From Acidimicrobiales bacterium (lineage in GTDB: Bacteria > Actinomycetota > Acidimicrobiia > Acidimicrobiales > DATDAH01), in the NCBI GenBank assembly GCA_016794585.1, contig JAEUJM010000013.1, positions 186,001-250,000 of the forward strand: DNA of 64,000 bases, in the 5' to 3' direction. Shown here piece by piece: positions 58,496 to 63,438 of the stretch; the first letter of the stretch is position 1, and each line of letters begins with the position of its first letter. The translations under genes and the position numbers were made by a program. The notes under the pieces are model-generated. The model worked only from the letters and a program-made list of their open reading frames with translations. It was not told the DNA's origin and searched no databases.

Positions 58496-59248
58496 GTGAC
58501 GGCGCCCGACGACCTGCACGAGTGGCTGTCGTTCGAGGCCGACGACGAGCACCGCACGTGGATGTTCGACCTCACGTTCCTCACCAGCAACTGGGACTGC
58601 ATCTTCGGACGCGGCTGTCCCGGGGTGCTCACCGGGCCGGCCGCCGACGCCGAGCAGGGCTGCTGCTCGTACGGCGCCCACTTCACCGGCGACGCCGACC
58701 GGTCCCGGGTCGAGGCCCGCATCGCCGAACTGGGCCCGGACGAGTGGCAGTTCCACGACGAGGCGGCGGCCGCCGGAGGCGCCGTCCACGTCGACGAGGA
58801 GGGCGACACCGTCACCCGCCAGGCCGACGACGCCTGCATCATGCTCAACCGGCCCGGCCACCCCGCCGGCGCCGGCTGCGCCCTCCACCAGGGAGCGGTC
58901 GCCCGGGGCGAGCGGCCCCTCGACTGGAAGCCCGAGGTCTGCTGGCAGCTGCCGCTGCGCCTGGTCGACCACGCCGACGAGCACGGCCACGTCACCTCCA
59001 CCCTGCGGGAGTGGAAGCGGCGGGACTGGGGCGACGGCGGCCAGGAGTTCCACTGGTGGTGCACCGAGGACTCCCTGGCGTTCGTGGGCGAGCGCCCCGT
59101 GTACGTGGCCCTCCGCGACGAGATCGTCGAGATGGTGGGCGAGACGGCCTACCAGCACCTCGTCGACGTGCTCGCCGACCGACGCGACGGGATCGCGCTC
59201 CCCCACCCGGCCCGCAGGCGCACGCCACCACCCTCGGACGCACCCTAA
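58496..59248 (+). CDS. Cys-rich DUF3109-like protein, unknown
   Basis: A 250-residue soluble protein with clustered cysteines: SNWDCIFGRGCPGV, EQGCCSYGAHF, DACIMLN, GCALHQGA and WWCTED. The spacing suggests a bound metal or Fe-S centre, similar in style to DUF3109 and YkgJ-like proteins. Trp-rich segments surround them. No enzymatic role can be assigned. It starts at GTG after a -10-like box. The AAA+ gene begins 32 bases downstream. Confidence 0.65.
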   Translation: MTAPDDLHEWLSFEADDEHRTWMFDLTFLTSNWDCIFGRGCPGVLTGPAADAEQGCCSYGAHFTGDADRSRVEARIAELGPDEWQFHDEAAAAGGAVHVDEEGDTVTRQADDACIMLNRPGHPAGAGCALHQGAVARGERPLDWKPEVCWQLPLRLVDHADEHGHVTSTLREWKRRDWGDGGQEFHWWCTEDSLAFVGERPVYVALRDEIVEMVGETAYQHLVDVLADRRDGIALPHPARRRTPPPSDAP

Positions 59249-59280: not shown

Positions 59281-60216
59281 GTGCGCTCCTTTACCGCAGC
59301 AGAGCTGAAGTCCGCGGCCGACCAGTCGGGGATGTACTTCCCGCATCACGTGCTCGACCAGCTCGTCGCGGCCATCGACGCCGGCAAGCACGTGATCCTC
59401 ACCGGACCCCCCGGGACGGGCAAGACCACCCTGGCCTACATGGCGGCGGAGGTCGCCCAACAGGCGATGCTCTGCACCGGTTACCTGCCCACGACGGCCA
59501 CCACCGAATGGACGACCTTCGAGACCATCGGCGGGCTCCAGCCCACCGCCGAGGGCCTGATCTACCGCCCGGGGCTGTTCGTCGAGGCCATCGAGACCGG
59601 ACGCTGGCTCGTGATCGACGAGCTCAACCGCTCCAACTTCGACCGCGCCTTCGGGCAGCTCTTCACCGTGCTCTCGGGTCAGCCCGTGGTGCTGCCGTTC
59701 AAGCGAAAGGGCCAGCCCAACCCCCTCTCGCTCGTTCCCACCGGGGCCGAAGCCCCACGCGACACCGACGTGATCCGCCTGCCCAGCCGCTGGCGGATCA
59801 TCGCCACCATGAACGTGTTCGACAAGAACCTCCTGTTCGAGATGTCGTACGCGCTCATGCGCCGCTTCGCCTTCATCGAGGTGGGCACCCCCGACGAGGC
59901 CTCCTACCAGCAGCTGCTCCAGGGCCCCGGCGCCATCGTCACCCAGCTCCTGCCCCTCCGGAACTTCAGCGACCTGGGCCCGGCCGTCTACCTCGACGCG
60001 GCCCGCTACGCCGCCCGGCGAAAGCAGGACGGCGCCACGGACTCGCGGCTGCTGTACGAGGTCTTCTACGCCTACTTCCTCCCCCAATTCGAGGGCTTCG
60101 ACGACCTGCGCGCCACGAAGCTGTACCGGACGGTCGAGGGGCTCTTCGACCCGGAGGAGCAGGCCGAGGCCCAGCGCACGATCCAGGGCGTGCTCGGCGT
60201 CGAGCTGACCCTCTGA
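59281..60216 (+). CDS. McrB/MoxR-like AAA+ ATPase
   Basis: A 311-residue AAA+ protein: Walker A TGPPGTGKTT (41-50), Walker B GRWLVIDELNR (107-117), sensor 1 IIATMNVFDKN and the arginine-finger region YALMRRFAF. The pattern VIDELNRSNFDRAFGQLF is close to the McrB group of restriction-system ATPases and to MoxR chaperones. GTG 59281 has GAGGAG four bases upstream; the frame is open further upstream without a better start. It is followed at once by a DUF2357-like protein, suggesting a two-component machine. Confidence 0.88.
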   Translation: MRSFTAAELKSAADQSGMYFPHHVLDQLVAAIDAGKHVILTGPPGTGKTTLAYMAAEVAQQAMLCTGYLPTTATTEWTTFETIGGLQPTAEGLIYRPGLFVEAIETGRWLVIDELNRSNFDRAFGQLFTVLSGQPVVLPFKRKGQPNPLSLVPTGAEAPRDTDVIRLPSRWRIIATMNVFDKNLLFEMSYALMRRFAFIEVGTPDEASYQQLLQGPGAIVTQLLPLRNFSDLGPAVYLDAARYAARRKQDGATDSRLLYEVFYAYFLPQFEGFDDLRATKLYRTVEGLFDPEEQAEAQRTIQGVLGVELTL

Positions 60217-60217
60217 G

Positions 60218-61246
60218 GTGGCGTCGCCGGCTGAGTTCCAGGGCGCCGGCCAGCCGGACGCCACGAGGGCGCTCTGGGGACGCCTGCGCCGACCCTTCGA
60301 CGTGGTGGCCATGGTCGACGCGGTGCTGGGCCTCTCCCCCAACGTCGTGCGCCAGCTGGCCGGCACGATGCTGGCCACCAGCGGCGAGGCCGAGACCCTG
60401 CTGACGATGATGCCGCACACCCTGCGGTCGTTGGCGATGTCGACCACCAGCTCCCCCGAGCAGTGCCGGGGCGAGCTGCGGGGCCCGGTGCTGTGGAGCG
60501 AGACGATGTCGGCACGCTCGTCCAGCGCCGGCAGCCAGGACGTGTACGTCTGCTCGTCGCCGCAACGTGCGTACGACATCCCCGAGAACCAAGTCCTGGC
60601 TGCCGCGCTCGTGAGCATCCGCGACGCCGGGCGGGGGGTCGACTCGATGTCCGCCCAGTCCTACGACGACGACACGCTGCGGCGGGCCCGCCACAACGGC
60701 ATGCGGGCCATCCGCTTCCTGGAGCACCGGGCCATGTCCGCGGTCAGCCGGGACCGCCCGAGCCCCCGGGCCCTCAAGCGCACCCGGTCCGGCAGTCGAC
60801 GCCAGACCTACGAGCCCGCACTGCGGATGCTCGACCGGGCGGCCGACCCCCTCACCGCCGACGACATCCTCCCGTTCTGCGACCGGCGCACCCGGGCCCA
60901 GCACGCGTTGATCATGGCCCTCGTCGATCGTCTCGAGGCTCGTGGCGTGGAGCTGCCCCCGTTCCGGGCCTTCGAGGGGATCCTCTACTCGGGGCCCATC
61001 CGCTTCAACCACCCGCGCCGTCTCGGCGATCGCAGCCGGCCCCACGGCGTGATGCTCGGTGGGGTGCTCGTGGACGTGCCCGAGCGGGTGCGCGAAGACA
61101 ACCGGGAACGGGCCGAGTACGCGCTGCGCGAGCGCTCCGGTGGCCTACCGACGGTCGTCGTGCTCGAGCCCGCCGACGTGGACCGGGCCATCCAGGTCGC
61201 GGTCGAGGTGGCCAGGGCGCAGCAGGCCGAACAACAGGCGTCCTGA
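60218..61246 (+). CDS. DUF2357/McrC-like partner of the AAA+ ATPase, putative
   Basis: A 342-residue soluble basic protein that begins one base after the ATPase stop. VLWSETMSARSSSAG, VYVCSSPQRAYDIPENQVLAAAL and RRQTYEPALRMLDR resemble DUF2357 proteins that partner McrB-like ATPases, especially the D-x-PEN-x-x-L box. I see no clear PD-(D/E)xK nuclease motif in the C-terminal half, so nuclease activity is not supported. Possible roles: targeting subunit of a restriction-like complex or a nonrestrictive substrate receptor. GTG start with GAGG upstream. Confidence 0.6.
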   Translation: MASPAEFQGAGQPDATRALWGRLRRPFDVVAMVDAVLGLSPNVVRQLAGTMLATSGEAETLLTMMPHTLRSLAMSTTSSPEQCRGELRGPVLWSETMSARSSSAGSQDVYVCSSPQRAYDIPENQVLAAALVSIRDAGRGVDSMSAQSYDDDTLRRARHNGMRAIRFLEHRAMSAVSRDRPSPRALKRTRSGSRRQTYEPALRMLDRAADPLTADDILPFCDRRTRAQHALIMALVDRLEARGVELPPFRAFEGILYSGPIRFNHPRRLGDRSRPHGVMLGGVLVDVPERVREDNRERAEYALRERSGGLPTVVVLEPADVDRAIQVAVEVARAQQAEQQAS

Positions 61247-63225: not shown

Positions 63226-63438
63226 TCACTGAACCCAGAGCTCTCCGTCGTCGTCTTCGCGGTTTTCCTCGGCCAGGCACCACGAGGCGTGGTCGCGGCC
63301 CGGGTCTGCGCCACACTCGGCGCAGGGCTGTTCGTCTTTGATATCGAGCAGGCGATCGAAATCGAGTTCAGTTCGCTTGAGTGCTCGCGCTTCTTCGAAG
63401 CGACGGTGTCGACCCTTCTTCACGGGCCAGCTCCCCAT
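63226..63438 (-). CDS. Small zinc-finger-like protein, unknown
   Basis: A 70-residue protein with a basic N-terminus (KKGRHRRFEEARALKR), a Cys/His cluster (CAECGADPGRDHASWC) and an acidic C-terminus (ENREDDDGELWVQ). The cluster could bind one zinc. Common as a short unknown protein near translation genes; co-transcription with typA is possible. A TAGAGT motif lies about 20 bases upstream of the ATG. Confidence 0.6.
   Translation of the reverse strand: MGSWPVKKGRHRRFEEARALKRTELDFDRLLDIKDEQPCAECGADPGRDHASWCLAEENREDDDGELWVQ

Follow-up and report, generated by a model that had tools for sequence, protein, structure and literature searches.

A two-gene McrB-type motor and nuclease-dead McrC-like partner of Acidimicrobiales, probably domesticated for a non-cutting role

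What does a McrB-type motor do when the protein encoded beside it has no working nuclease? Known from restriction systems, McrB is an atypical AAA+ protein, and two adjacent genes in an Acidimicrobiales genome (5.49 Mb, 51 contigs) raise this question. They were examined within a 64,000-nucleotide stretch of that genome (the window), in which both open reading frames, and the single base between the ATPase stop and the GTG of the second gene, lie where the original prediction had placed them (Table 1). We give a probability of roughly 0.6 to the view that the pair forms a McrBC-type motor complex in which the recognition end and the cutting end of the restriction machine are both lost, and which has been domesticated in a non-cutting form.

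Table 1. Features of the pair and its neighbours in the window (positions are those of the window)
Feature	Coordinates	Strand	Details
Cys-rich DUF3109-like gene	58496..59248	+	250 aa; upstream neighbour, probable operon partner
McrB-type AAA+ NTPase	59281..60216	+	311 aa; GTG start at 59281, GGAG ahead
ATPase motifs			Walker A GPPGTGKT (K48); Walker B D113 E114, then N116 R117; NxxD = N178-D181; arginines R194 R195
McrC-like partner, nuclease-dead	60218..61246	+	342 aa; GTG start; AF2 model, Foldseek, VIA, hhalign
McrC-type finger: beta-stalk and loop-helix-loop tip	60440..60571	+	residues 75-118; RGPVLWSETMSAR...DVYVC
Degenerate PD-(D/E)xK remnant	60962..61243	+	residues 249-342; catalytic positions read H276, D286, P288
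70-aa Cys protein	63226-63438	-	CAECGADPGRDHASWC; relatives near the pair at most loci

The first gene had been called McrB-like, and library comparisons agree. The best Pfam family is AAA_5 (E 2.4e-17), against E 0.007, below cut-off, for the MoxR-type AAA_3 motor; McrB is the top NCBIfam match (E 1.4e-9, far under the McrB cut-off), and among PDB chains midasin is followed by McrB (6hz4, E 4.7e-11). In E. coli McrB the catalytic residues are D279, E280, N282, R283, N333, D336 and R349 (PMC6624300); their counterparts in the window ATPase, paired by motif, are D113, E114, N116, R117, N178, D181 and R195. Walker A and Walker B are present at all 35 ATPase loci and MNxxD at 33, the other two reading INAMD, which is still NxxD; the window protein itself reads NVFD. 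Identity between any two loci is at least 60%, with every motif retained. Since the AAA match starts at residue 37 (Pfam) or about residue 17 (McrB chains), there is no space for an N-terminal recognition domain, and no N-terminal nucleic-acid recognition domain was found on the 311-residue protein with either Pfam or the McrB chains. Judged by its motifs, the ATPase retains each catalytic element of the McrB ring and is without the DNA-recognition domain.

Searches of Pfam, PADLOC, NCBIfam and PDB with the sequence of the second protein returned no match, Pfam DUF2357 and McrC included, so that the partner was placed solely by structure and profile comparison. An AlphaFold2 model built from 36 sequences (pLDDT 93.3, pTM 0.86) gave four leading Foldseek matches in the PDB, all of them McrC (6hz4_M at E 9e-4, then 6ut6, 6ut5 and 6ut7), with low TM-scores of 0.25, and the next unrelated match reached only E 0.55. 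With VIA, the partner matched E. coli McrC (6ut6_G) at Z 9.8 over 238 residues (47-328, spanning the finger and nuclease halves), as against Z 5.8 for the best non-McrC match. The rmsd to McrC is 11.5 A for the whole chain, which we read as differing domain angles between the model and McrC, and 4.0 A to 6ut5_G when 135 finger-region residues are compared.

The finger is the most conserved stretch of the partner. In the model, beta-strands 75-84 and 109-118 enclose a helix at 93-102, which fits the published anatomy of the McrC finger, a stalk with a loop-helix-loop tip (PMC7680126). The D-x-PEN box on which the original assignment to McrC/DUF2357-type partners was based is real (residues 120-124, RAYDIPEN): D120 is present in 33 of 36 partner rows, with N in the other three, and N124 is invariant, as are G89, W93, T96, A99, C112 and R117. 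The model thus indicates that the McrC finger is retained, with helical bundle, beta-stalk and loop-helix-loop tip. McrC inserts a basic residue, K157 in E. coli, to stimulate McrB (PMC7680126); basic residues 188-195 of the partner vary in register, and the K157 equivalent cannot be placed with certainty. R194 was considered for this role and set aside for want of conservation at its position.

The nuclease half was compared with that of four pairs whose motors, at about 37-44% identity, are the nearest found beyond the order; they are encoded on plasmids of Priestia (L114:3056-6223), Paenarthrobacter (L115:2972-6180), Natronosalvus (L116:3452-6294) and Salinigranum (L117:2186-6509). The partners of these motors, taken together as a profile, are homologous to the window partner by hhalign (probability 98.7, E 4e-16). 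In these plasmid pairs, unlike in the window, the motor carries an N-terminal extension and is 498-994 aa long, the partner has an intact RPD...(E)xK nuclease, and the bacterial pairs lie beside methyltransferase genes. The proteins in question, adjacent to or near the motor, are annotated as hypothetical, have no Pfam match above cut-off, and are apparently unannotated McrC proteins.

Where the nuclease-bearing relatives have RPD...(D/E)xK (RPDMIMEF...CIVEVK, RPDIVIEL...IILELK, RPDIILER...VFVGEVK and RPDIVIIA...VILGEIK on the plasmids), the partner reads RPH...DVP, within RPHGVMLGGVLVDVPE in the window; hhalign aligns only to residue 240, and this correspondence is one that we draw from the order of motifs and strands. 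The E. coli McrC sequence here is TDI...VDAK, with D244, D257 and K259 kept. Across the 36 partner rows the lysine position holds P in 23 and K in none. The model shows strands at 277-280 and 283-286, then helix, strand and helix, and the LVDVP motif of this fold remnant is retained in the main clade. Four short partners keep the finger and stop before the remnant or are without most or all of it (L037:9971-10774, L038:3813-4610, L050:1471-2310 and L051:1465-2328). An active PD-(D/E)xK site is absent from the partner in the 36-row alignment, in the comparison with nuclease-bearing relatives and in the structure model, which bears out the suspicion that no working nuclease would be found; structure prediction, proposed at the outset as a check, gave a McrC-like protein without a canonical nuclease site. 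As modelled, the nuclease fold survives in the partner and its catalytic residues are gone, and with these residues lost the pair would not be expected to restrict DNA by cutting.

The setting of the pair is that of ordinary chromosomal genes. At many loci the order is glcD-glcE, Cys-rich gene, ATPase, partner and then typA, the 70-aa Cys protein and an alpha-amylase gene, the names glcD, glcE and typA being our reading of the sequences. The recurring neighbours, tallied from the clusters checked by Pfam, include an RNase D-like exonuclease with HRDC, a transketolase, a ClC channel, an alpha-amylase, a MobA-like protein and a HxlR regulator. Among those checked there were no defence genes and no HEPN, Hsp70-like or other effector gene, and no DNA-metabolism gene is co-conserved in the operon. 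Viral contigs held no relatives of the partner, phage records gave two weak partial ATPase matches, and no close mobile or viral copies of the pair were found. The defence setting suspected at first was thus not found, and a stable housekeeping block stands in its place. The other outcome that had been foreseen, a conserved housekeeping chaperone outside defence islands, holds as to place and fails as to universality, as the pair occurs in about 4% of class genomes.

The same pair in the same gene order was found at more than 40 loci, and with few exceptions the genomes are of Acidimicrobiales type. The partner is present in 13 of 395 class genomes (with one weak match) and the motor, at E 1e-40, in 11 of 296; the phylum sample gave 4 of 296, all in the same order. 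One locus (L010) lies on a contig labelled Acidobacteria that carries the Acidimicrobiales gene block, and is probably misbinned or mislabelled. At two loci of a single genome (L004 and L043 of G010) the reading frame of the ATPase seems to be disrupted; in tblastn L043 yields the ATPase in separate pieces (36% and 49% identity), against a single match of 67-82% at other loci.

Distances of the ATPase and the partner correlate with r 0.84, and those of each with the Cys-rich gene at 0.63 and 0.59, respectively. In a genome without the pair (L094) the order is as in the window (amylase, 70-aa Cys protein, typA, Cys-rich gene, glcD, glcE), with 57 bp between the Cys-rich gene and typA, and further pairless blocks were seen at L080, L083, L091 and L110. 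The loci compared indicate that the pair is present or absent as a unit, nearly always at one conserved chromosomal place. We also asked whether the interval separating the Cys-rich gene from typA is a general hotspot and dropped this idea, as pairless genomes are nearly empty there or hold other ORFs. In four pairless genomes (L096, L097, L098 and L103) an ORF resembling a ClC-type chloride channel lies downstream of the Cys-rich gene; a similar ORF at L014 is ClC by Pfam. On the tree of the Cys-rich protein the presence of the pair requires nine changes, seven of them forced by well-supported branches; these changes, at least seven, would also be explained by horizontal transfer of the block, so that the tree is compatible with both repeated loss and transfer. 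Ancient presence followed by repeated loss fits best.

The Cys-rich protein had been proposed as a third component, and the neighbourhood comparison does show its gene recurring directly upstream of the pair, at almost all loci and with a gap of -7 to 117 bp to the ATPase. It is not obligate: the gene occurs in 161 of 296 class genomes, mostly without the pair, and in two lineages (L061/L119 and L026/L120) the pair has no Cys-rich gene alongside. In 27 relatives C35, C41, C56, C57, C114, C128, C149, C189, H62 and H131 are invariant; Pfam DUF3109 is matched in 17 of them (best E 1.6e-7), and the window protein scores E 0.017 and 15.4 bits (cut-off 33.5). A model of the protein (pLDDT 80.6) found only E 0.32 as its best match in the PDB. 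The genome of the window holds a second match to the protein elsewhere. Tentatively, the protein is the first candidate client of the complex, a role weakened by the fact that its gene usually occurs without the pair.

The pair shares with McrBC of E. coli K-12 and T. gammatolerans an AAA+ ring protein with NxxD and Walker B-N-R, a motor-first arrangement of adjacent genes, and a partner with the McrC finger and nuclease-fold topology. It differs in that the N-terminal recognition domain is missing, the nuclease D and K are lost and restriction neighbours were not found, and since two defining features, nuclease and recognition domain, are lacking, we do not class it among McrBC restriction systems. 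CoCoNuT systems already provide a precedent for nuclease-dead McrC, as types II and III have a McrC homologue whose nuclease is inactivated or lost (PMC11090510). CoCoNuT motors, however, carry NxD where the window motor has NxxD, and no HEPN nuclease, Hsp70-like or other effector gene was seen among the recurring neighbours checked. The MoxR-VWA group, for example NorQD, likewise joins an AAA+ ring to an adaptor that remodels a client, in NorQD a metalloprotein, which offers an analogy for the Cys-rich neighbour (PMC9976466, PMC13036017). In contrast to that group, the motor matches McrB rather than MoxR and the modelled partner is McrC-like rather than VWA, with no Pfam match to a VWA domain at the pair. 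That the motor was domesticated as a chaperone or metal-loading remodeler of the Cys-rich DUF3109-like protein, as a McrB/McrC counterpart of NorQD, is an analogy that we consider unlikely to hold.

The ancestry of McrBC is defensive, and the pair might still act in defence without a nuclease, the motor sensing foreign nucleic acid or protein, or translocating on it, and either forming a roadblock or recruiting a host nuclease encoded elsewhere. The patchy distribution would suit such a role, as would the methyltransferase and restriction genes beside the nearest bacterial plasmid relatives and the inactivated McrC nucleases that CoCoNuTs keep beside other effectors (PMC11090510). The conserved housekeeping position without defence genes among the neighbours checked, the lack of close mobile or viral copies, of a recognition domain on either protein and of a PADLOC match for the partner make it, in our estimate, rather unlikely. 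A decidedly improbable alternative is that the dead fold binds DNA or RNA and is moved by the motor, the complex serving as a nucleic-acid-binding or dominant-negative modulator of repair, replication or transcription. Retention of inactivated PD-(D/E)xK folds for binding has been proposed in CoCoNuTs (PMC11090510), and the fold remnant with its LVDVP motif is kept in the main clade; however, the remnant cannot be essential in all, as the four short partners stop before it or are without it, and the operon has no co-conserved DNA-metabolism gene.

Loss of nuclease and recognition domain, together with the many absences, might also be taken for decay of a McrBC system to a remnant with no present function. 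Against this stand the identity and complete motifs of the ATPase, frames that are intact at nearly all loci, and dN/dS values of 0.02-0.10 for the ATPase and 0.06-0.40 for the partner in the compared pairs (dS being near saturation in several), which indicate purifying selection on the pair; decay is very unlikely.

A domesticated, non-cutting motor complex remains our preferred reading, as the retention of motor and finger, the loss of recognition and cutting, and the ordinary gene setting suggest that a restriction motor has taken on a different task. By homology with McrBC, the ATPase would form a hexamer, the finger of the partner would plug its pore and stimulate NTP hydrolysis; the nuclease fold, now dead, may serve dimerisation or client binding. 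The whole might then be no restriction enzyme but a motor domesticated for remodelling or regulation, and an accessory role may be why losses of the pair are tolerated. A ring with a pore-plugging finger and neither recognition nor cutting would show what the motor alone can do, and the pair, two genes in about 2 kb altogether, would offer a compact and clean means of finding out if McrB motors can act on proteins.
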